From the IMG/VR virus record IMGVR_UViG_3300042934_000884, positions 1-21,929 of that record: 21,929 nt of DNA, one strand, 5' to 3'. The notes under the pieces were generated by a model. That model was not told where the DNA came from and did no database searches. It was given only the letters and a program-made list of their open reading frames with translations. Source of the stretch: a virus. The translations under genes and the position numbers were made by a program. Below are positions 1 to 8,155 of this stretch, piece after piece. Position 1 is the first letter of the stretch. Each line of letters starts with the position of its first letter.

Positions 1-592
1 ATGCTCTCTTTAATCGTTCATGATCATCAGTAGTAAAGTCTACCTCTTTATAATAGTTTTCAGTACCGTAGTATGGTGGATCTAAATAAAATAATGTACC
101 TTCTCTATCGTATGTGGTTATAATTTTTTCAAAATCCCTGTTTTCTATTACGACTGAGTTTAAGCGATTTTGTATTTCCTTAAGATAGTTTATATATTTA
201 GCTGTATCTTTTTTTACACAACCGTATGTACCACCTTTACTTCCGTATGAAGTTTTAATTATCATAAAATATCTAGCAGCTCTTTGTATGTCTGTAAGTC
301 CTCTGGTCTTATATTGAGACAAATAGTCTTGAAACATTTCCCTGGAGTTTAGAAAATAATTCAGTTCTCTTTGCAATTCTTCTCTGTGATATTTTACACA
401 CCTGAATATATTTACCAACTCAGAGTTATAATCATTGTATACTTCAAAGTTTGCATGTTTATCTTTATAAAACAATACCCATGCTGCTCCTCCAAATACT
501 TCGACATATCTATCTATTTTTTCAGGAAATCTATTCACTATTTCTTTTCTTAATAGTTTTTTTCCTCCTATCCAACTTAAAAAACTATCCAT
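1..592 (-). CDS. Dam-type DNA adenine methyltransferase (partial, C-terminus outside window)
   Basis: My own translation of the minus strand is open from an ATG at 592 to the window edge (197 complete codons, no stop). Residues 7-11 (WIGGK) match the N-terminal AdoMet-binding motif of the D12 class N6-adenine methyltransferases, residues 32-40 (VFGGAAWVL) fit the next conserved block, and residues 171-174 are the catalytic DPPY motif, followed by YYGTENYY. A ribosome site GAGGTG lies at 598-603, 5 bases before the ATG. Family knowledge: these enzymes methylate adenine, often at GATC, and phages carry them without a partner nuclease, commonly for protection from host restriction or for regulation. 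The recognition site cannot be read from this part. The C-terminal region is missing only because the window ends. The gene diverges from the plus-strand LexA-like gene; I found no convincing promoter of its own. Confidence 0.93.
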   Translation of the reverse strand, partial: MDSFLSWIGGKKLLRKEIVNRFPEKIDRYVEVFGGAAWVLFYKDKHANFEVYNDYNSELVNIFRCVKYHREELQRELNYFLNSREMFQDYLSQYKTRGLTDIQRAARYFMIIKTSYGSKGGTYGCVKKDTAKYINYLKEIQNRLNSVVIENRDFEKIITTYDREGTLFYLDPPYYGTENYYKEVDFTTDDHERLKRA

Positions 593-651
593 TTCATCAC
601 CTCAATATAATTATATCTTCGTATTTGTGTATTGAAAATAGCGAAAAGATA

Positions 652-680
652 TTTACTTCGAACATTTGTTCTGTTATAAT
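652..680 (+). promoter_or_regulatory. Sigma-A-type promoter of the LexA-like gene
   Basis: TTTACT (652-657), a spacer of exactly 17 bases, then a perfect TATAAT (675-680). The expected start of transcription is near 687, leaving a short leader with GGAGG at 701-705 before the TTG start at 713. The SOS box fills the spacer, so a bound LexA-type repressor would block RNA polymerase. Confidence 0.72.
659..672. promoter_or_regulatory. LexA (SOS) operator box
   Basis: CGAACATTTGTTCT matches the Gram-positive LexA consensus CGAACRNRYGTTYG at 12 of 14 positions, including the complete GAAC-N4-GTTC dyad core (660-671). It lies between the -35 and -10 hexamers of the promoter for the LexA-like gene. 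This predicts SOS control by host LexA, self-repression by the encoded DNA-binding domain, or both. The operator also sits in the gap between the two divergent genes. Confidence 0.8.
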
Positions 681-712
681 TTGTTATAACTAAATAATCT
701 GGAGGACTTAAT

Positions 713-958
713 TTGAAGTATTTAACTAATGCTCAATTTGAAATTATGAAGTGCATTGATGATTATACCAGAACTTACGGCTATCCTCCTACATATAGGG
801 AGATTGCAATATTAACAAATAGGGATTCTGTAAGCACAATATATTGCCATGTAAAACTTTTAATAAAAAAGAACTATCTTAAAATGCAAGAACATAGCCC
901 GCGTACAATAAAAATAATAAGTAATTATGATGAAACTCATATTAAACAACTGCATTAA
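713..958 (+). CDS. LexA-like winged-helix DNA-binding protein lacking the S24 peptidase domain
   Basis: The 81-aa product aligns along its whole length with the N-terminal DNA-binding domain of LexA: the opening LTNAQFEIMKCIDDY, the YGYPPTYREIA helix start, a recognition helix around SVSTIYCHVKLL, and the wing ending in SPRTIKII. LexA normally continues for about 120 further residues with a self-cleaving S24 domain; here the frame stops at 958 and a hairpin follows at once, so this looks like a deliberate short form and not a frameshifted gene. The start is TTG at 713, chosen because GGAGG (701-705) is well placed and the LexA similarity begins there. Inference: it could bind SOS boxes without being inactivated by RecA, competing with or replacing host LexA. 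It would likely need another way to dimerise, since LexA dimerises through the missing domain. Confidence 0.85.
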   Translation: MKYLTNAQFEIMKCIDDYTRTYGYPPTYREIAILTNRDSVSTIYCHVKLLIKKNYLKMQEHSPRTIKIISNYDETHIKQLH

Positions 959-984
959 AAAAAGACCAGGCATAATACCTGGTC
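957..984. terminator. Hairpin with A-run after the LexA-like gene, possibly bidirectional
   Basis: Perfect 7-bp stem GACCAGG (964-970) / CCTGGTC (978-984) with a 7-base loop, directly after the stop codon of the LexA-like gene. The seven-A run at 957-963 becomes a T7 tract on the minus strand, so the best terminator reading is for minus-strand transcripts running towards the methylase. Downstream on the plus strand there is only ACTTTA, so termination in that direction would be weaker. Confidence 0.7.
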
Positions 985-1095
985 ACTTTACTATCCAATC
1001 TAACAACGCAAATAATTATTATAAAAAGCATGTGAAAAGCTCAAAATTGCATGTTTGTTATTAAAAATTTAAGTAAATAATATTAAGGTGATACA

Positions 1096-1335
1096 ATGAG
1101 AATTCTAAACAAGCCAGTCAAAGTATTGGCTATTTTTAAAACAGACGGTAAAATCGAGCCGGTTCAGTTCACACTCGATGAAAAAGTTATTAGTATAGGC
1201 AAAATTGTAAAGTTTTATGAAGAAAACTTGGTTGGAAATACTAGGTTAGTCTTTTTATGTGAGCAAAAGGAAAAGTACTTTTATGAATTAAAATATGAGC
1301 TGGATAGCAATAAGTGGTACCTATTTGTACAATAA
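1096..1335 (+). CDS. Small conserved-looking protein of unknown function (79 aa)
   Basis: The ATG at 1096 has AAGGTG (1085-1090) upstream at good spacing, and the frame ends just before a strong plus-strand terminator (1390-1418), so this is a real small transcription unit. The protein is soluble, with no signal peptide or membrane segment. It has a predicted mostly beta pattern (KVLAIFKTDGKIEPVQFTL near the start, then LVFLCEQK and YELKYELDSNKWYLF near the end). From memory it resembles short Firmicutes proteins found near Y-family DNA polymerase genes in SOS-regulated loci; I could not check this and assign no function. It follows the LexA-like gene in the same direction but has a 137-bp gap with a hairpin before it, and no second SOS box is seen there. 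Confidence 0.68.
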   Translation: MRILNKPVKVLAIFKTDGKIEPVQFTLDEKVISIGKIVKFYEENLVGNTRLVFLCEQKEKYFYELKYELDSNKWYLFVQ

Positions 1336-1348
1336 GAATATTATATGG

Positions 1349-1371
1349 TATACCACCTGTCAGGTAGTATA
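1349..1371. repeat. 23-bp near-perfect palindrome
   Basis: TATACCACCTG (1349-1359) and CAGGTAGTATA (1361-1371) are inverted copies with one mismatch and a single central base (T1360). The spacing is too tight for an efficient RNA loop but fits a binding site for a dimeric protein. It lies between the 79-aa gene and its terminator. Function unknown. Confidence 0.6.
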
Positions 1372-1389
1372 TAATTTAATATCAGAATC

Positions 1390-1418
1390 GCCGGAGATTG
1401 ATTACCTCCGGCTTTTTT
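1390..1418 (+). terminator. Rho-independent terminator of the plus-strand gene
   Basis: Perfect 7-bp GC-rich stem GCCGGAG (1390-1396) / CTCCGGC (1406-1412), 9-base loop, then T6 (1413-1418). It ends the transcript of the 79-aa gene and faces the late-operon terminator a few bases away. Confidence 0.9.
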
Positions 1419-1424
1419 CACAAT

Positions 1425-1451
1425 AAAAAAACCCGGACATTTTGTGTCCGG
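1425..1451 (-). terminator. Rho-independent terminator at the end of the late operon
   Basis: Stem CCGGACA (1433-1439) / TGTCCGG (1445-1451) with a 5-base loop. The seven A residues at 1425-1431 form the T7 tract on the minus strand. It follows the last lysis gene by about 50 bases and closes the whole structural and lysis block. Confidence 0.9.
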
Positions 1452-1498
1452 TTATAATCTTAAAGGCATCTTCACCTTTACAGATGCAGGATCATCTC

Positions 1499-1876
1499 CT
1501 ACTGATTTTCTGTTTCAGATGTTTCACCTAATAGTGCAACACCCTCCTGTAAAGCCAAATCTGTAAATAGTAAATTTTGAGCTTTGTTCAGTTCATACAC
1601 GGCAGCTTCTATCAAGGCATCAAGTTCATTATCGGTAATTGTAATGCCCTTGTCCTTAATAAACGCTAAAACATACTGCTTTCTATCATCCTTATTCAAA
1701 ACATCTGATTTCTTAAGCTGTTCTGCAGCAGCTACAGCTACTTTAACCCACATCTGGACAATGCCCATTTTTTCAGTGCCTATTTTAGCTTTTACCCATG
1801 GTACAACAAAACCGGTCAGTACCAGGCCAAGAATTGATATTACAAGTGTTGCGATTTGATACATTAAATTGTTCAT
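1499..1876 (-). CDS. Phage holin, LLH family
   Basis: The 125-aa protein has one N-terminal transmembrane segment (residues about 5-28, MYQIATLVISILGLVLTGFV), then a charged cytoplasmic domain with the family signature: AAEQLKKSDVLNKDDRKQYVL followed by KGITITDNELDALIEAAVYELN. This is the LLH holin family (Phage_holin_6_1). The role is to form or control the membrane lesion that lets the endolysin reach the cell wall, or to act as a partner or antiholin of the second holin. The start ATG has AAAGGAG upstream. It is the last gene of the late operon, directly downstream of the amidase. Confidence 0.88.
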   Translation of the reverse strand: MNNLMYQIATLVISILGLVLTGFVVPWVKAKIGTEKMGIVQMWVKVAVAAAEQLKKSDVLNKDDRKQYVLAFIKDKGITITDNELDALIEAAVYELNKAQNLLFTDLALQEGVALLGETSETENQ

Positions 1877-1888
1877 AAATGCTCCTTT

Positions 1889-2623
1889 CTACTTCTCCAA
1901 TAGTCTTTTCATGATAATTGTATTTAGCCATACCAACTCATGAACTGTTATGGTTTTATTCTTTACTTTTGTTTCCCAATCTGCTGTGTTCAATATGCCT
2001 TTTTCACGCAATGTTTTCACATTTTCATACAGCATGTCCCATTGCCATTGCTCTGTTAACTGTAAAGCCATTTCGCACCTCTCATTAACATCATTTTTAA
2101 ATTTAACCCACTCTTCAGGGTTATTAACAAACCATCGGTGACAGTCCTTCCATCCAACAACTTCCTGGTGCAGCCATAAAGGCTTTTCTGCACCTACCAG
2201 GTCAAACTGTTGCATTAAATCGGCGACTCTATGTACCAGAGTTTTATATGTCTCATCAGTCATTTTCCCTGTCCAATCGATGTGTGTACATTCAATGCCA
2301 TATGTGCAGTTGTTTGGATATGATCCTAAGTATTTTATTGCTTCGTCAGTATATGGTTTTGTGCTGCCCACATGGTAAGCCATTTCATCAGCAGGAATAT
2401 CAACTATAATACTGCCATCTAAATCAATAATCTCATGTGCTGATCCATAACCGCTATTTCCTGATTTTCTATTTTCAAAGAAATTTCTATTAGCTGCAGC
2501 AGTAGAAAGTGGATTCGCTACCCAATGGATTACAATCCCTTTCACTTTTTTCAGCTTGATTCCTGGCCGTGAAAATTCATTTACAGTAAGTAAATTTTCT
2601 GTTACTTTATACTTTTGACTCAT
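1889..2623 (-). CDS. Endolysin: N-acetylmuramoyl-L-alanine amidase (Amidase_2)
   Basis: The 244-aa protein has a zinc amidase domain over residues about 20-170. Likely zinc ligands are H33 (in VIHWVANP), H152 (in WLHQEVVG) and C161 (in KDCHRWF). The GSAHEIIDLDG strand and the NCTYGIECTH block (residues 105-114) are typical of T7 lysozyme/PGRP-type amidases, which cut the bond between muramic acid and the stem peptide. Residues about 184-244 form a helical C-terminal region that may bind the wall or regulate activity. There is no signal peptide, so export depends on the holins. The ATG lies inside the end of the upstream holin gene (17-bp overlap), and the nearest GGAGG is about 16 bases away, so translation is probably coupled. 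Confidence 0.93.
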   Translation of the reverse strand: MSQKYKVTENLLTVNEFSRPGIKLKKVKGIVIHWVANPLSTAAANRNFFENRKSGNSGYGSAHEIIDLDGSIIVDIPADEMAYHVGSTKPYTDEAIKYLGSYPNNCTYGIECTHIDWTGKMTDETYKTLVHRVADLMQQFDLVGAEKPLWLHQEVVGWKDCHRWFVNNPEEWVKFKNDVNERCEMALQLTEQWQWDMLYENVKTLREKGILNTADWETKVKNKTITVHELVWLNTIIMKRLLEK

Positions 2624-3134
2624 TATCTGCTGTTTTAACCTCCTTTATGGTCCCATCTGCATTAATTCCTTCCTCTTCCAATATTTTTTCTTTTCTGTGC
2701 TTGACTATTGCAAGTAGCCACTTCACATCACTGCCGGCATCGTCAAGATTTTCAAGTATGGATTGGCACTCTCTTAAAAACAAAATAGAGTAAACAACCG
2801 TGCCGAGAAATGCTGCTACTCCGGCAACTGGTGATACCCTATAACTTAAACCAACCATTATGAAAATTATTAGATATGCAAATATTTTTCTTGATGTTCC
2901 CACCCACATACTATTACTGTTTATATACTTGCCTCTTATGCTCTTCCATAGCCCGCCATGATGGACAGCAATTGAGTAATACTTTGTAATGATGTCTAGC
3001 ACCATAACACCTACTACTGCACAAAATGCCGTCAAATATGAGCTCTCAGGAAATAGAACGTACATAACCGCACTTAAAAACAGGGCTGCTATTGGTTGCA
3101 CGTTTTCAAATGCATTTTTTAAATACTCATTCAA
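2607..3134 (-). CDS. Phage holin (holin-4 / toxin-secretion lysis holin type)
   Basis: The 175-aa membrane protein has hydrophobic segments at about residues 14-28 (PIAALFLSAVMYVLF), 33-50 (AFCAVVGVMVLDIITKYY), 83-98 (FAYLIIFIMVGLSYRV) and 100-118 (VAGVAAFLGTVVYSILFL). A conserved GLWKSIRGKY-type loop and SRKI lie before the third segment, and the C-terminal tail is highly charged. This matches the Phage_holin_4 family. The start is TTG at 3134 with GAGGTG (3140-3145) five bases away. It is the first gene of the lysis cassette and overlaps the amidase. The second, unrelated holin after the amidase suggests a two-holin or holin-antiholin system. Confidence 0.85.
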   Translation of the reverse strand: MNEYLKNAFENVQPIAALFLSAVMYVLFPESSYLTAFCAVVGVMVLDIITKYYSIAVHHGGLWKSIRGKYINSNSMWVGTSRKIFAYLIIFIMVGLSYRVSPVAGVAAFLGTVVYSILFLRECQSILENLDDAGSDVKWLLAIVKHRKEKILEEEGINADGTIKEVKTADNESKV

Positions 3135-3146
3135 TTCAACACCTCT

Positions 3147-5168
3147 CTATTGATTTGGTTGCCCAAATCTAATATTTTCATAATTTCTACGTTTTGCTTT
3201 TACTTCCCATCCGAATTTTATGTTATCACCTTTAACAACGAAATTAGTTGCATTGCGTTGCTCAATCCACACTCTGCCGTCACCATATGGCTGCAAAAAC
3301 ACTTGATAAGGCAAATCGGTATTAACACATGCAAGTAACTTTTCATCCAGTTTAATAACACATTCACTGTTTACAACTTCGTCTTCGCCTATGTCACCCA
3401 GGTATATATCTGCTGTTTCGTATGCGCTGAAATCCAAATTACCGTATTGTTCAGTTTTAATTCTACAATTTTTAGTACCATCAACTGTAAAATTCCCATC
3501 AACTGAAACATTTCCATAAAATTCAACAATTCCAATACTAAAATCCATCCTGCTACTATATACTACCATTGGGGGATAACCGTCAACATGCCACAATTCC
3601 CATGCGGAAGTAGCACAATCAATAATCACCTTAGAACCTTCAGCATTTGTTGGTGGCGGGTTATATCCTTTGCTTTCCCAATCAGCAAATGCCGGATATG
3701 ATTCAATCCAGTCAAATGTACCTCCATACATTGAAATATTAACCCAGTTGTTTCCTAAACTAACCGCACCATTACCAAATTCTAGCCCCATGTGTGAATT
3801 ATTGCTATTCAAACTAATAGTATTTTCAGCTGGCTTATTTGGATTTGTAGCTTTGAACTCGTCGTAAAATTCCAATTCGCTTTGTAATATATTTTGTGGC
3901 AAACCTGATCTATAATTAATATTAAACTGCTGTAATGTATCTTTCTTTTTTATACTCAACACACCATTATCAAGCTTTATTTCCGCATCTGCATTGTCGG
4001 ATGTAACGGTTGAGCCGGTTATAGTTACACCGTCGATATTTATAGCTGTTAATGTTCCGGTTGTTATTTCATTTGCTGATATGCTTTCCCCGGTTACAGC
4101 TGTTCGCCATATCCATTTTCCTGTATTGTCTTTTGCATTTGCAATTAGAATACCGCCGCTGCTTAGTAATATTACCCAGGTGCTTTCTACTTCAGTTGGC
4201 TGATTGTGTATCAATATGCCCCTGGTATCGAACGTTACATACCCTGTTTGTCCCTCTACAGTTTCAATTGCATCATTTAAAGTGCCTGACAATTTCTCTG
4301 CTATCAACTTCCCATGCTCATCAATAACACCATTTACTTTGTCTGCAGTTGCTTTCGCAGTCTTTTTTATAGCTGCGATATTAGTGCTCAGGTCCTTGAT
4401 TGGTTCACCTAATACAACTTTGCCATTCATCCCAGTAACAAGATCACGTTCCATGTCAATAATTCTGATATCAAGTTCAATGTTCAGGGCATCATCAACA
4501 ACTCTTACAGTATCACCTAAATCATAATATCCGAGTTCTTCAAGTTCACTGCCTTGTACAACATCAACCTCATAGCTTACAGTTCCTTCAACCTTGTCAA
4601 TGGATCTTCTTACACGCTCCATATTCTTGCCAAATCTGAAATCTGTACCTCTGTTCTGGCCAATCTGTTGTTTTAATGCTATGTCTTTCCGGAAGTATTC
4701 TATTTCCCCTCCCCAGATTATAGCAACTTGGTATAGTAAGCTTTTTATGTCTGTTTCAGACTGAACATCTATACTTGCAGTTGTAGTAACATCAGTCCCT
4801 GTGAAAGTAAAGCCACTGCCAGTTAACAAGTCATTCATGACATATATTGCAGCTCTATTCTGGTGCGTGAATGTCAATTTTGTTTGTTCTATCAAGTCAT
4901 AGCTGATATGTTCACAGCTTACTGTAACCTTAAGCATATTATTAGAATCATGCTCATCATCAAGGGTAACAACCCTGAAGTAATCATTGTTGTATACTAT
5001 TAGATTTGAGTCATCATAGAGAAACTCAGTTTTCAACTCCTCAATAATTGCCACGAAATCAAGTACATATTCACCATTAATAACTTTGTGAACACTGGCA
5101 CTCTCCAGGTTATTAAGATAGGCTAAAACAACACCGTCCTGATTAATTATTGTAAGTATATTACTCAC
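3147..5168 (-). CDS. Tal-like phage minor structural / tail endopeptidase-type protein
   Basis: The N-terminal 370 or so residues fit the phage minor structural protein N-terminal family (prophage tail endopeptidase or SPP1 gp21 type): the opening ILTIINQDGVVLAYLNNLES, the central VSCEHISYDLIEQTKL, and GYYDLGDTVRVVDDALNIELD. These proteins form the tail-tip hub. A SANEITTGTL segment (family form SA.KITTGTL) begins the C-terminal half, which is fibre-like and rich in beta structure. Start: the GTG at 5168 is the only usable start, as TGA precedes it in frame; the ribosome site is weak. The gene sits after the fibre gene and next to the lysis genes, which differs from the common Dit-Tal-fibre order. 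A terminator-like hairpin (5181-5207) stands directly before it. No clear peptidase residues could be assigned. Confidence 0.85.
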   Translation of the reverse strand: MSNILTIINQDGVVLAYLNNLESASVHKVINGEYVLDFVAIIEELKTEFLYDDSNLIVYNNDYFRVVTLDDEHDSNNMLKVTVSCEHISYDLIEQTKLTFTHQNRAAIYVMNDLLTGSGFTFTGTDVTTTASIDVQSETDIKSLLYQVAIIWGGEIEYFRKDIALKQQIGQNRGTDFRFGKNMERVRRSIDKVEGTVSYEVDVVQGSELEELGYYDLGDTVRVVDDALNIELDIRIIDMERDLVTGMNGKVVLGEPIKDLSTNIAAIKKTAKATADKVNGVIDEHGKLIAEKLSGTLNDAIETVEGQTGYVTFDTRGILIHNQPTEVESTWVILLSSGGILIANAKDNTGKWIWRTAVTGESISANEITTGTLTAINIDGVTITGSTVTSDNADAEIKLDNGVLSIKKKDTLQQFNINYRSGLPQNILQSELEFYDEFKATNPNKPAENTISLNSNNSHMGLEFGNGAVSLGNNWVNISMYGGTFDWIESYPAFADWESKGYNPPPTNAEGSKVIIDCATSAWELWHVDGYPPMVVYSSRMDFSIGIVEFYGNVSVDGNFTVDGTKNCRIKTEQYGNLDFSAYETADIYLGDIGEDEVVNSECVIKLDEKLLACVNTDLPYQVFLQPYGDGRVWIEQRNATNFVVKGDNIKFGWEVKAKRRNYENIRFGQPNQ

Positions 5169-5180
5169 CTGCTTTCATAT

Positions 5181-5207
5181 AAAAAAGAGACCTTTTTCAA
5201 AGTCTCT
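5181..5207 (-). terminator. Terminator-like hairpin inside the late operon, before the Tal gene
   Basis: On the minus strand the stem is AGAGAC ... GTCTCT (5186-5191 with 5202-5207), extended by AAA/TTT pairs with a bulge, followed by T6 (5181-5186). This is a normal rho-independent terminator. Only about 18 bases separate it from the GTG start of the next gene, so no new promoter can fit. Transcription of the Tal and lysis genes must therefore read through or be antiterminated. Confidence 0.75.
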
Positions 5208-5233
5208 GGGCCACGAAATATTTCTTTTGTTGC

Positions 5234-5383
5234 CTAAGCTGCAGTTAACATCGCAGTCAATTCATCGTAATTTTCTTGTGTAATCCTGTTGTTAAGTAGG
5301 AACACATCAAGCTTTATTTGCATGTCCTCTTTTGTACCATAAGTACCGTTTTGAATTACTTTTTTACAATAAATGTATGTCAT
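5234..5383 (-). CDS. Small tail-module protein (49 aa), XkdX-like in position
   Basis: Read from the sequence directly: ATG at 5383, TAG at 5234, with AGGAG well placed upstream. The peptide opens MTYIYCKKVIQNGTYGTKED and ends in the pattern NNRITQENYDELTAMLTAA. Short proteins ending in an I(T)x(E/Q)xYxEL motif are regular companions of tail-fibre genes in Firmicutes phages, such as XkdX of PBSX. Their function is not known; association with the tail tip or fibre is likely from position. It lies between the 97-aa gene and the terminator-like hairpin. Confidence 0.75.
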   Translation of the reverse strand: MTYIYCKKVIQNGTYGTKEDMQIKLDVFLLNNRITQENYDELTAMLTAA

Positions 5384-5398
5384 AACTTTTCTCCTTTC

Positions 5399-5692
5399 CT
5401 ATATGCCTAATTCAAGAAGGCTTATTCTATAATCCAAATCAATCAAGTAGTCAAATTCTGTTGGTTCCTGTGGCTGTTCAGATTCCTGTTCAATAATTGG
5501 CTCTACAACAGTTGCTTGTTCTCCCCATGTCTTACAAACTTCGATAAATACTGCTTCACCAAAGTCCGCAAGAAGTTCTTGCCTTCCAGTCGGTGTATTA
5601 ATATAACATCTTCGCCACAGATTACCTTGTTCATCAATTTTAGATAAATTTAATTGATTTATAGTTATTTCCGAAATATCAATATTCTCCAT
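5399..5692 (-). CDS. Small tail-fibre-associated protein of unknown function (97 aa)
   Basis: The first in-frame start is a GTG at 5701, but GGGAGG runs directly up to it, so the real start is almost certainly the ATG at 5692, giving a 97-aa acidic protein opening MENIDISEITINQLNLSKID. It has a middle segment GRQELLADFGEAVFIEVCKTWGEQ, a low-complexity acidic linker (EPIIEQESEQPQEPTEF), and an amphipathic end (LDYRISLLELGI). Such proteins occur after tail-fibre genes in Firmicutes phages; fibre assembly or a minor tail role is inferred from position only. No enzyme motif is visible. Confidence 0.78.
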   Translation of the reverse strand: MENIDISEITINQLNLSKIDEQGNLWRRCYINTPTGRQELLADFGEAVFIEVCKTWGEQATVVEPIIEQESEQPQEPTEFDYLIDLDYRISLLELGI

Positions 5693-5707
5693 AAATAGCA
5701 CCCTCCC

Positions 5708-8155
5708 TTAATCAATCAAATAATCTGCTGAACCATATAATGTTGAATTGCTTGCTAAATTCGAAGTAGTCAATGCCGAATAAGTTTTAGCACTTCCGCC
5801 TTGAGTAAGATATCCAAAGTTAGTACCACCCGATACATAACCGCTCAATTCAGTATAGCCTGTACCAAAAGTAATATTGTCATATCTACCAATTTTCATT
5901 GTAGCCATACCTACTATGCTTCCAGAGGACGCTGCAAAAGGCAACCCTTTTAATTGCACATTACCTGCCATAGCGGCATCTTTTGCTGTCATAGTTATTC
6001 CGAATTCAACGTGTACGAATTTTCCCATCTTATAGTATTTTCCAACCTGGGCACTATAAGTATTTGTTCCTGCTGTAGTCTGACCTGCAAGGATTGGCGT
6101 CCATGAACCCTCATCTGAATATACAAACTTTTGCCAGTTTGACCACGTTCCATTATAACGTGTACGAATGTACATTTCACCTTGACGGCTGCTAGAAGAA
6201 TTTATTATAGTAGCTCTTTGAAATAATCTATCAAGACCAACTAAACCTGTATTATATACTTCGACAATGTATGTATTATCTGAGTCTGTTATAGGAGCAC
6301 CATATCTTGTATAGCACAGATATGTTTTTCCAGTGTCAACTACTGAGTCTAAATTTGTTGCATTTGCTAGGTATGCATATTCCTTTGTTATATCTTGTAC
6401 AATTTTCATACTTTCAGAAATAATTGTTTGACTTTCAATCAATCCATCAATTGCTGCCCCAACGTTTGTAGGATAACTAAACTCAGCACTTGTCTGAGGT
6501 GAAGATGTTGAAGTTATAGCAACTTGACCACCTGGTTCAGCTATCAATGGCGCTGCGTTGGTATCAAGTATTTGAAGTGTTGCAAGTTGATAAATTATCT
6601 TTGTACCTGCAAGTGATGCTTGAGCTGCTGCTAAATTTGCATATGTGCCTTTTGAGACTATCACTTCTAATCTACTTGAATTAAATCTATGTTTTCCAAC
6701 ATTTGTAGTACTGTCAAACGTGCCTAAAGTATTATTCGCAGGAGTAGAAATAGGTGTCATTAATTTAGTTGCAACATTATCTGCTGTTCCTGCGTTTACT
6801 AAATCTGCAAAAGCATCCTCACCAATAAATATAACGTCAATATTGGTATATCCTGTATATAGTTGGTCGACATCTGTTAAAATTAATGTCTTTTCAGCAA
6901 TCCTTTTAACATACTTTTCATCCTCTGTTATCTCATCATACACACCATTAGGAAGTTTATTCAATGTAATTGCTTTACCGTCTAACGTCTTGTATTCAAT
7001 GTCAGTGCCTTTGTATGGTTCGTATGATGTTGCAACTGTGCCCTCTTCAATTTGAAATGTATTTGCCAATGCGTCAAGATTAGCACTTGATGGGGAGCAT
7101 CTTAAATATGCAGCATTTGCAGGAGCAATACTTGCTTTTGGTAAATTTGTTCCCCATACTTCACCCGATATATAATTTTTATTATTGTCATACCATGCAA
7201 GTCCAGCACTTCCTGAGCCCGCTGTAATATTAAAGTAATAAGTTGAACCACTTTTAACGGTGATATAGTCTGTTGCCATATAAGTTGCACTATTTCCAAG
7301 AGCACCTGTAGCAGCCAAAACATAAGCACCAAGCGTAGCTTTGCTCTTATCAAACAAGTTCTTTCCACAGCTAACAGCCTTAATTCCTGTTGAGCCTTGT
7401 AGACTCTCAAAATATGTGCCAAACAGCCTATCGCATGTCGCAAGGTCTGGCTCATTACCTGCGCCATAAATTGCTGTGAGGTCAACCATTCGTGCGTTTT
7501 TTGTGTAGACATTAGTCCAACCACTAGAACGTCTATCCTGCACATTAAACATAGCCGAAGATGATTTTGTGGTTGTACTTGTGAATAGCTTAGATAGTTT
7601 TTCATATTGATTACTCCCGGTATGGTATGTTAACACTTCCGTACTAGAGTAACTATCATTCAAACACACGCTGTTGCTATCACTTTTAACATCAATACTT
7701 GCATAATACTTATGTCCTGCTATCTCAGATAAACCGTATGAGTAGACATTCCCATATTGAGCTGATGCTAACATTGTAAGTACATTACCACTCACAGACC
7801 TCGTTGCATTGCTTGTACTCCAATTGTCTGTAGTTGCAAAGTTACCATTCTTAATCATATTTACAGCACTCATGCCTTTTAACTTCACGTCAAGTTTTCC
7901 ACGTTTTGCTGTTGTTGGTATGTTGTTTACTGTGTTGTAGTTTGCTGCGATTGTTTGTGCTTCTATTGTTCCTATTTGGGTATCCAAATCGTTAATTTGT
8001 GCCCTAATATCTGAGTGAGCTGTGACGTCAATATTATGTGCTTCAACATCACCGCTATTATTTAAAGCTTCTTCTATTGCTGTAAAATTTCTTCCGCATC
8101 TATAGAGGTTTTCTTTGCCTGTCAAGGCGCCTAAAATCTTTTCTAATGTTATCAT
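5708..8155 (-). CDS. Tail fibre / receptor-binding protein with carbohydrate-binding-like modules (815 aa)
   Basis: The product reads as a modular fibre. Residues 1-95 hold an N-terminal attachment region with a VEAHNIDVTAHSDIRAQI repeat typical of phage tail proteins. Residues about 98-250 form a jelly-roll module opening NMIKNGNFATTDNW and ending YFESLQG. Residues about 262-382 form a second module opening NLFDKSK and ending ATSYEPYKG. A linker and helical stretch follow, then a pyocin-knob-like domain (LCYTRYGAPITDSDNTYIV to TWSNWQKF) and a C-terminal beta domain of about 125 residues. The modules suggest binding to cell-surface sugars and host recognition. AGGAGG lies just before the ATG. 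The gene directly follows Dit, where many phages have Tal. Confidence 0.85.
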   Translation of the reverse strand: MITLEKILGALTGKENLYRCGRNFTAIEEALNNSGDVEAHNIDVTAHSDIRAQINDLDTQIGTIEAQTIAANYNTVNNIPTTAKRGKLDVKLKGMSAVNMIKNGNFATTDNWSTSNATRSVSGNVLTMLASAQYGNVYSYGLSEIAGHKYYASIDVKSDSNSVCLNDSYSSTEVLTYHTGSNQYEKLSKLFTSTTTKSSSAMFNVQDRRSSGWTNVYTKNARMVDLTAIYGAGNEPDLATCDRLFGTYFESLQGSTGIKAVSCGKNLFDKSKATLGAYVLAATGALGNSATYMATDYITVKSGSTYYFNITAGSGSAGLAWYDNNKNYISGEVWGTNLPKASIAPANAAYLRCSPSSANLDALANTFQIEEGTVATSYEPYKGTDIEYKTLDGKAITLNKLPNGVYDEITEDEKYVKRIAEKTLILTDVDQLYTGYTNIDVIFIGEDAFADLVNAGTADNVATKLMTPISTPANNTLGTFDSTTNVGKHRFNSSRLEVIVSKGTYANLAAAQASLAGTKIIYQLATLQILDTNAAPLIAEPGGQVAITSTSSPQTSAEFSYPTNVGAAIDGLIESQTIISESMKIVQDITKEYAYLANATNLDSVVDTGKTYLCYTRYGAPITDSDNTYIVEVYNTGLVGLDRLFQRATIINSSSSRQGEMYIRTRYNGTWSNWQKFVYSDEGSWTPILAGQTTAGTNTYSAQVGKYYKMGKFVHVEFGITMTAKDAAMAGNVQLKGLPFAASSGSIVGMATMKIGRYDNITFGTGYTELSGYVSGGTNFGYLTQGGSAKTYSALTTSNLASNSTLYGSADYLID

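Follow-up and report, generated by a model that had tools for sequence, protein, structure and literature searches.

A Prophage-Encoded LexA DNA-Binding Domain without a Cleavage Domain, behind a LexA Box and Predicted to Damp the Host SOS Response

Introduction

The SOS response drives prophage induction, mutagenesis and gene transfer. A phage gene that encodes the DNA-binding domain of LexA without the cleavage domain, behind what appears to be a LexA box, raises the question of whether host LexA controls it and what its product would do in a cell with damaged DNA. Such a gene lies in the IMG/VR virus record IMGVR_UViG_3300042934_000884, which we analyzed over its whole length (21,929 bp, herein referred to as the window) and which covers part of a tailed-phage genome of Firmicute type, including genes for terminase, portal, head, tail, lysis and integrase.

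Results

The Gene Encodes a LexA DNA-Binding Domain Alone

The gene and its immediate signals are as follows.

713 to 958, plus strand: gene for an 81-aa LexA DNA-binding-domain-only (herein DBD-only) protein, with a TTG start; the recognition helix spans about residues 39–52, within DSVSTIYCHVKLL
701 to 705, plus strand: ribosome-binding site GGAGG of the DBD gene, read directly
964 to 984, plus strand: terminator-like hairpin just 3' of the DBD gene, scored on both strands

Residues 1–65 of the protein match the Pfam LexA_DNA_bind profile over its full length (48.2 bits against a cut-off of 23.7), and no other Pfam family scores above its own cut-off. A Pfam profile search found no match to the S24 domain (PF00717), and the open reading frame ends after the DNA-binding domain. 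Because its score against the NCBIfam LexA equivalog (46.9 bits) falls far under the cut-off of 110.95, the protein is not a full LexA. An AlphaFold2 model computed from an alignment of 21 rows (mean pLDDT 92.2) retrieves LexA in each of the first six rows of a structure search (Z 13.0 to 11.5), including Thermotoga maritima LexA (3k2z; Z 13.0, 77 aligned, rmsd 1.9) and the Escherichia coli LexA–DNA complex (3jsp; Z 12.6, 70 aligned, rmsd 1.3), against a Z of 9.8 (74 aligned, rmsd 3.3) for the best of the other winged helices and lower values for the rest. A sequence-only reading of this DNA had taken the protein for the LexA winged-helix domain alone, with the S24 cleavage domain missing, and both points stand. 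A PADLOC match to Csn2 (15.7 bits) is weak and was taken as chance.

The window protein also matches phrog_3502 over its DNA-binding domain (60.7 bits, E 3e-16), an entry that is likewise the best match of 8/8 other DBD-only proteins tested. In the PHROG library, the label of PHROG 362 is "transcriptional repressor" and that of PHROG 3502, the best match of the window protein and of the relatives tested, is "unknown function", with no SOS control attached.

A Conserved LexA Box Fills the Promoter Spacer

652 to 680, plus strand: promoter of the DBD gene (−35 TTTACT at 652–657, 17-bp spacer, −10 TATAAT at 675–680)
659 to 672, no strand assigned: LexA (SOS) box CGAACATTTGTTCT, with the core GAACATTTGTTC at 660–671

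The 14-mer CGAACATTTGTTCT lies wholly within the 17-bp spacer, between the hexamers at 652–657 and 675–680, which bears out the earlier claim of a GAAC-N4-GTTC box exactly in this position. Its core is the sole exact GAACN4GTTC match in the 21,929 bp, against a chance expectation of 0.15, and 13 of 100 shuffled windows contained at least one exact box somewhere; on a single sequence, the box is only mildly improbable. There is no further match with at most one mismatch to CGAACN4GTTCT in the window, matches with at most two mismatches are no more frequent than chance predicts (7 against 9.8), and three further words reach 7/8 of the core (at 4645, 9458 and 19369). Since promoter-like sites in 560–1100 number 7 against 3.9 expected, the promoter call, too, rests on conservation.

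This conservation can be followed through two viral relatives (L002 and L003, with DBD proteins 93% and 90% identical to that of the window), an isolate prophage in S. acidaminivorans (L049, 79% identical) and a more distant Sedimentibacteraceae genome (L078, 46% identical). The 14-mer is unchanged in L002, L003 and L049, and L078 keeps the core with a changed N4; the promoter hexamers are kept in L003, L049 and L078, and the −35 hexamer is TTTACA in L002. A chance origin of the box is hence ruled out by conservation (phylogenetic footprinting and recurrence in distant relatives) and not by the single-window statistic. In L003, another 8/8 box (at 2933) falls within an open reading frame.

The Host Uses the Same Box

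A contig (L048) of the Sedimentibacter metagenome-assembled genome JAQSYS (G016) is 100% identical to window positions 724–6955 (6,232 bp), so the host genus is known to be Sedimentibacter, with the usual binning caveat. This genome encodes a full-length LexA with S24. Across five Sedimentibacteraceae genomes, CGAACN4GTTCT occurs 3 to 6 times per genome and stands at the lexA promoter in 5/5. The exact 14-mer of the phage precedes a DNA polymerase IV-like gene in two of them, G016 (in which the protein was profiled) and G041 (in which it was recognized by likeness, and in which the longest open reading frame call extends over the box, with the probable start downstream of it); the pattern is also found at phage modules in G017 and G018. 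Because the genome-wide counts (4, 6, 5, 3 and 4) do not exceed those of a reversed-pattern control (7, 3, 2, 11 and 2), the evidence from host boxes rests on the identity of the genes behind them. A LexA operator of host type overlaps the DBD promoter, with the box in the spacer and the same box at a host gene. Control of the DBD gene by host LexA, which the sequence-only reading had proposed, is strongly supported by these shared boxes.

Box-Controlled DBD-Only Genes Recur

Within 120 bp upstream, a box with at least 7/8 of the core precedes 24 of 30 DBD-only genes (11 at 8/8 and 13 at 7/8), and in 16/30 it lies in the 17-bp spacer of a recognized promoter. The remaining six score 5/8 or less over this distance (L133, L135, L152, L153, L154 and L193); L193 and L152 have boxes farther upstream, and the DBD gene of L193 is third in a run headed by a gene with an 8/8 box. 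As a control, we scored 254 open reading frames of the same loci, from which DBD and methyltransferase genes had been removed by HMM and the duplicate locus L049 dropped. Only 4/254 have a box of at least 7/8: two unrelated genes (L138:7542 and L184:403), one divergent gene that shares the box of its DBD neighbor (L136), and the head gene of the L193 run; a laxer spacer test is likewise passed by 4/254, the L193 head gene included. In the unfiltered tally of 297 open reading frames, 30 have such a box, among them 20 DBD and 5 methyltransferase genes.

These 30 DBD-only genes are not independent (there are four close Sedimentibacter copies, L191 and L192 share upstream DNA, and seven represent one Bacillus type), and the shuffle P for single 7/8 boxes is only 0.02–0.04. 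The constancy of GAAC-GTTC amid changing N4 and flanks is a stronger argument than the counts. Phage Wrath and six related viral contigs carry a Bacillus-type DBD-only gene with GAACN4GTTT 77–78 bp upstream of the ATG and a variable N4; of ten Wrath-related contigs, six hold the upstream DNA, and the box is present in 6/6. A survey of 249 genomes of the host's order returned at least 14 short-frame matches (<130 aa), three already known and 11 new. For 10 of these 11, a TTTACA/TATAAT-type promoter holds a box of at least 7/8 in its 17-bp spacer (two, from one genome, share upstream DNA); the eleventh is L193. Among the matches listed from a class-wide sample of 391 genomes, G079 has three short-frame genes, two with a 7/8 box, and G431 (L133) has one without. 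The G079 genes (L134, L135 and L136), at least three DBD-only genes in one clostridial genome, include two whose promoter region contains CAAACACATGTTCG and one in which this sequence is degenerate.

In Psychrobacillus phage PVJ1 (L202), the DBD-only gene precedes a dinB/UmuC-type polymerase gene and a YolD-like gene in a same-strand run that also includes a small regulator, with a lysozyme gene upstream. Measured upstream from the DBD match, 7/8 boxes lie at 229 and 262 bp, close to where the run begins, and another at 462. For DBD-only genes of Enterobacteria, Pseudomonas, Mycobacterium and Pelagibacter phages (L203–L206), a search for this box type alone found no GAACN4GTTC of at least 7/8 in the 700 bp upstream. 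Searches with the window protein found nothing among plasmids at E up to 1 and phage Wrath alone among phages at E up to 10, and scans with A2 and A8 returned solely the two known viral relatives. Eight Listeria, Enterococcus and gut-phage records that were read (L194–L201) proved to encode full-length LexA and were rejected as DBD-only genes; short or partial LexA-domain matches at contig ends (e.g., L079) were left out.

A Divergent Methyltransferase Shares the Box in Sedimentibacter-Type Loci

2 to 592, minus strand: D12-class N6-adenine DNA methyltransferase, divergent from the DBD gene; 3' end lost at the window edge (197 of about 251 aa)
610 to 638, minus strand: methyltransferase promoter (TTTTCA at 638–633, 17 bp, TATAAT at 615–610)

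Beyond what the earlier reading had mentioned are this divergent methyltransferase, the cassette nature of the pair and the family-wide recurrence described above. Full-length relatives of the methyltransferase are present in L002, L003 and L049, and by PADLOC it matches type II and orphan methyltransferases. Its promoter hexamers are kept in four close members (the window, L002, L003 and L049) with a changing spacer, and the LexA box is centered about 62 bp upstream of the inferred start site. L002, L003 and L049 are arranged like the window, with the methyltransferase leftward, the same 14-mer and the DBD gene rightward, and L078 has the same gene pair with CGAACAATTGTTCT in the same promoter, such that a divergent pair sharing the box is found in 5/5 Sedimentibacter-type loci with both genes visible. 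Nucleotide similarity between L002 and L049 covers about 1.1 kb, from just past the methyltransferase stop to just past the DBD stop, with differing flanks; between L002 and L003 it extends about 135 bp more on the DBD side, and that of the window ends near 1012–1017 (L002, L003) and near 962 (L049). The dN/dS ratio is 0.05–0.08 for the methyltransferase (three pairs). By sequence likeness, L002:1-3753, outside the cassette, has genes resembling type I restriction-modification genes and one resembling a small regulator, which indicates that this accessory region is variable.

One explanation for this arrangement is that the DBD protein is a local switch for the methyltransferase, in a role like that of a C protein, with no effect on host SOS genes. 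It accords with the shared box of the five divergent pairs, with an L002–L049 similarity that covers just the two genes, and with DBD-only LexA-like genes beside or near adenine or other DNA methyltransferase genes in phages mEp460 (L203), F116 (L204) and Cosmo (L205), by which the link recurs outside Firmicutes, in phages of Gram-negative and mycobacterial hosts. However, the box is the operator of host LexA, and an HMM of nine D12-type methyltransferases found none in L184–L193 (ten stretches with 11 DBD-only genes) or in the Wrath stretch, where 10/11 genes and Wrath nonetheless keep the box; we consider a purely local switch improbable. By eye, L192 has a different, SAM-methyltransferase-like open reading frame downstream. 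The methyltransferase was also rejected as a constant partner: 13 loci with more distant methyltransferases (41–48% identity) have no LexA domain, although these records are fragments.

The same promoter bears on a second explanation, in which a truncated LexA made upon SOS induction binds a palindrome close to a promoter and recruits RNA polymerase. This is how gp6 of GIL01 is reported to work, a DBD-only LexA homologue that is a direct activator and whose transcript is LexA-repressed (PMC6182141). For the window protein, the target would be the promoter of the divergent methyltransferase or else a late promoter of the phage lying beyond the window. The methyltransferase promoter has a weak −35 (TTTTCA) and conserved hexamers, and a box centered at about −62 is where activators can contact polymerase. 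Against this, the window, itself a partial phage genome, shows no enrichment of the gp6 operator GACACANNTGTGAC (12 matches with at most three mismatches, 14.5 expected), the sole exact GAACN4GTTC of the window sits in the DBD gene's own promoter, 16/30 DBD-only genes keep the box in their own spacer, which is a repressor position, and an HMM search found no methyltransferase relative in the Wrath stretch or around the 11 genes of the order survey. We consider such activation unlikely, and repression through the spacer box remains our preferred reading.

The Recognition Helix Is Kept within LexA Variation

The comparison of recognition helices covered 18 clostridial DBD-only rows (of 19, without L152) and 51 full LexA rows (five divergent rows dropped). 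S39 is found in 18/18 DBD-only and 51/51 full LexA rows, S41 in 15/18 (A in three) and 51/51, and T or S at position 42 in every row counted of both kinds. Position 44 is H (11) or Y (7) in the 18/18 DBD-only rows and H in 47/51 full LexA rows (H or Y in 48/51); position 46 is H in 48/51 full LexA rows and H (7) or Y (11) in the DBD-only rows. The window helix DSVSTIYCH, with S39, S41, T42, Y44 and H46, is inside the variation of clostridial LexA and DBD-only relatives, and a helix unlike that of LexA, named beforehand as an outcome that would speak against the sequence-only reading, was not found at these five positions. Residues 36–38 (NRD), C45 and the wing differ between the window protein and host LexA, and its DNA specificity could have shifted from that of host LexA, as in GIL01 gp6. 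Two DBD-only proteins (L153 and L154) have clearly different helices, and their genes are without such a box upstream.

The kept helix positions also weigh on a third explanation, that the domain is a RecA decoy that binds active RecA filaments rather than DNA. The LexA N-terminal domain is reported to interact with RecA too (PMC3834820); however, both the recognition-helix positions kept in DBD-only proteins and the box in the gene's own promoter suggest DNA binding, and we regard a decoy as very improbable.

LexA is reported to dimerize via its C-terminal domain (PMC3834820), and because that domain is absent here, the affinity of the window protein may be low. By one account, the N-terminal cleavage fragment of LexA keeps SOS-box binding and must be removed by Clp proteases (PMC10584840); a Staphylococcus aureus review states the opposite in a simpler form, that truncated LexA loses SOS-box binding (PMC11442139). 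Start codons are weak (TTG in the window and close relatives, an apparent ATT at 6001 in L049), which may keep the DBD protein scarce. A C-terminal end of two alanines is a kind of ClpX signal, and none of the C-terminal tails of 17 DBD-only proteins read ends in this way (weak evidence).

DBD-Only Proteins Form Their Own Lineage in Accessory Loci

We inferred a FastTree phylogeny of 84 DNA-binding domains (from 117 unique domains, thinned at 90% identity, with contig-edge fragments dropped) over about 70 columns, a length at which conclusions on evolution are suggestive only. Nineteen clostridial-type DBD-only proteins group in a single clade, separate from full-length LexA (local support 0.78), within which the Sedimentibacter-type subclade has support of 0.997; the Bacillus-type DBD-only protein is placed with LexA from Listeria and Enterococcus contigs, an indication that it may have arisen separately.

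These relationships bear on the possibility that the gene is a decayed LexA fragment with no function, which the sequence-only reading had itself allowed for, should relatives always carry S24. The missing C-terminal domain is what a decayed copy would look like. However, stand-alone copies are conserved in their own clade under purifying selection (DBD dN/dS 0.09–0.19, six pairs), along with promoter, box and terminator, the promoter and box persisting in the relative at 46% protein identity (L078), and the next open reading frame downstream is unrelated to S24. We reject decay, which we regard as scarcely credible.

Holin or peptidoglycan-hydrolase genes lie near the DBD gene in the window, L049, L185, L186, L187, L189 and L190, and L184 has a holin match below its cut-off; L002 and L003 have lysin-like genes nearby, by sequence likeness alone. 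Judged by such neighbors, the position of the DBD gene is an accessory one of the lysogenic-conversion type. One small neighbor belongs to a family of its own.

1096 to 1335, plus strand: 79-aa protein of unknown family, whose relatives neighbor DBD-only genes elsewhere

There is no exact box before this copy, and no Pfam or NCBIfam match in the tested members of the family (about 80 aa). Members lie directly 3' of the DNA polymerase IV-like gene in Sedimentibacter (L088 and L095), just downstream of an exact LexA box in G017 and G018 (L087 and L096), next to DBD-only genes in prophages (the window, L003 at 5541–5789, L188 and L193) and, in L018, next to a methyltransferase; L186 has a similar-looking 82-aa gene by its DBD gene that is absent from the family HMM matches listed. 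The family is perhaps a YolD-like partner of the polymerase, and the tie of the 79-aa protein to the mechanism of the DBD gene appears to be one of association. No RNA family was found in positions 1–2000 at the gathering threshold.

Discussion

A Self-Limiting Brake on SOS

From what computation establishes (the domain, the lack of S24, the box in the promoter, host use of the same box, purifying selection and recurrence), we hypothesize, with a probability of roughly 0.6, that the DBD protein is a prophage-borne, SOS-induced, non-cleavable and self-limiting repressor that mimics the N-terminal fragment of LexA and damps host SOS. Host LexA on the spacer box would keep the DBD gene off; upon DNA damage, RecA would trigger LexA self-cleavage and the DBD promoter would fire. 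The 81-aa protein, having no RecA-responsive S24 domain, would not be switched off by the RecA route. It would then accumulate and occupy its own box, giving a delayed negative autoregulation, and would compete for other LexA boxes of the cell, such that host SOS and LexA-controlled elements would be damped or shortened. In this lineage, the divergent promoter also has that bound box about 62 bp upstream, so its occupancy may favor the methyltransferase over the DBD gene as well. What we infer is that the protein binds the box, represses its own gene, damps host genes and affects the methyltransferase; autorepression is the best supported of these functional steps, host SOS damping comes next, and the methyltransferase effect is the most speculative.

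More tentatively, the recurrence of these genes may mark a widespread class of prophage anti-SOS systems that has evolved at least twice, in which an uncuttable LexA DNA-binding half is placed under LexA's own operator, so that the damage signal alone sets free the brake that then counteracts it. Such brakes would have become linked, repeatedly, to error-prone polymerase operons, to lysis-end accessory loci and to DNA methyltransferases. If this is true, a phage gene that re-imposes LexA-type repression after LexA cleavage would alter the response of lysogens to DNA damage, and would affect the time for which error-prone polymerases remain on as well as the outcome of competition for induction among several prophages. 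The published point that the LexA N-terminal fragment must go for SOS to proceed would become a phage strategy that can be tested, and a candidate function would be at hand for phrog_3502, whose function is listed as unknown.

Comparison with Known Systems

Both the LexA domain and the habit of phages to carry it are already known. Among the matches listed from the literature searched, which was mostly open-access, there was no SOS-box-controlled DBD-only LexA besides GIL01 gp6, nor did we find in it an SOS-box-autocontrolled DBD-only family across Firmicute prophages; because of this combination, we regard the DBD-only family as a variant on a known theme.

The closest comparison is gp6 of the Bacillus tectivirus GIL01, described as a truncated LexA homologue that is encoded among the early genes, binds GaCACAC-GTGTGaC and activates the late promoter P3 (PMC6182141). 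Like gp6 as there described, the window protein is a phage protein made up mainly of the LexA DNA-binding domain without the cleavage domain, and the LexA-repressed gp6 transcript, made after DNA damage, finds its likeness in the predicted LexA control of the window gene. Unlike what that account gives for gp6, the window gene has a LexA box in its own promoter spacer, a LexA-type helix and a place beyond the lysis genes; the gp6 operator GaCACAn-nTGTGaC is not enriched in the partial-genome window. The account of gp6 places K38 in its recognition helix; residue 38 of the window protein, in its own numbering, is D.

The window protein shares its domain with the N-terminal cleavage fragment of LexA in E. 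coli and S. aureus; unlike that fragment, it is encoded as such by the phage, has its own C-terminal tail and is not made by cleavage. Other mobile elements damp SOS at different points: GIL01 gp7 is reported to act on LexA (as a co-factor, by stabilization), and PsiB and the ICEBs1 proteins RamT/RamA on RecA or its filaments (PMC11841131). In the available text of that source, none of gp7, PsiB and RamT/RamA is described as a LexA DNA-binding domain, which sets the DBD protein apart from them; what it would share with gp7, plasmid PsiB and RamT/RamA is the predicted outcome, namely a mobile element that limits the SOS response of its host.
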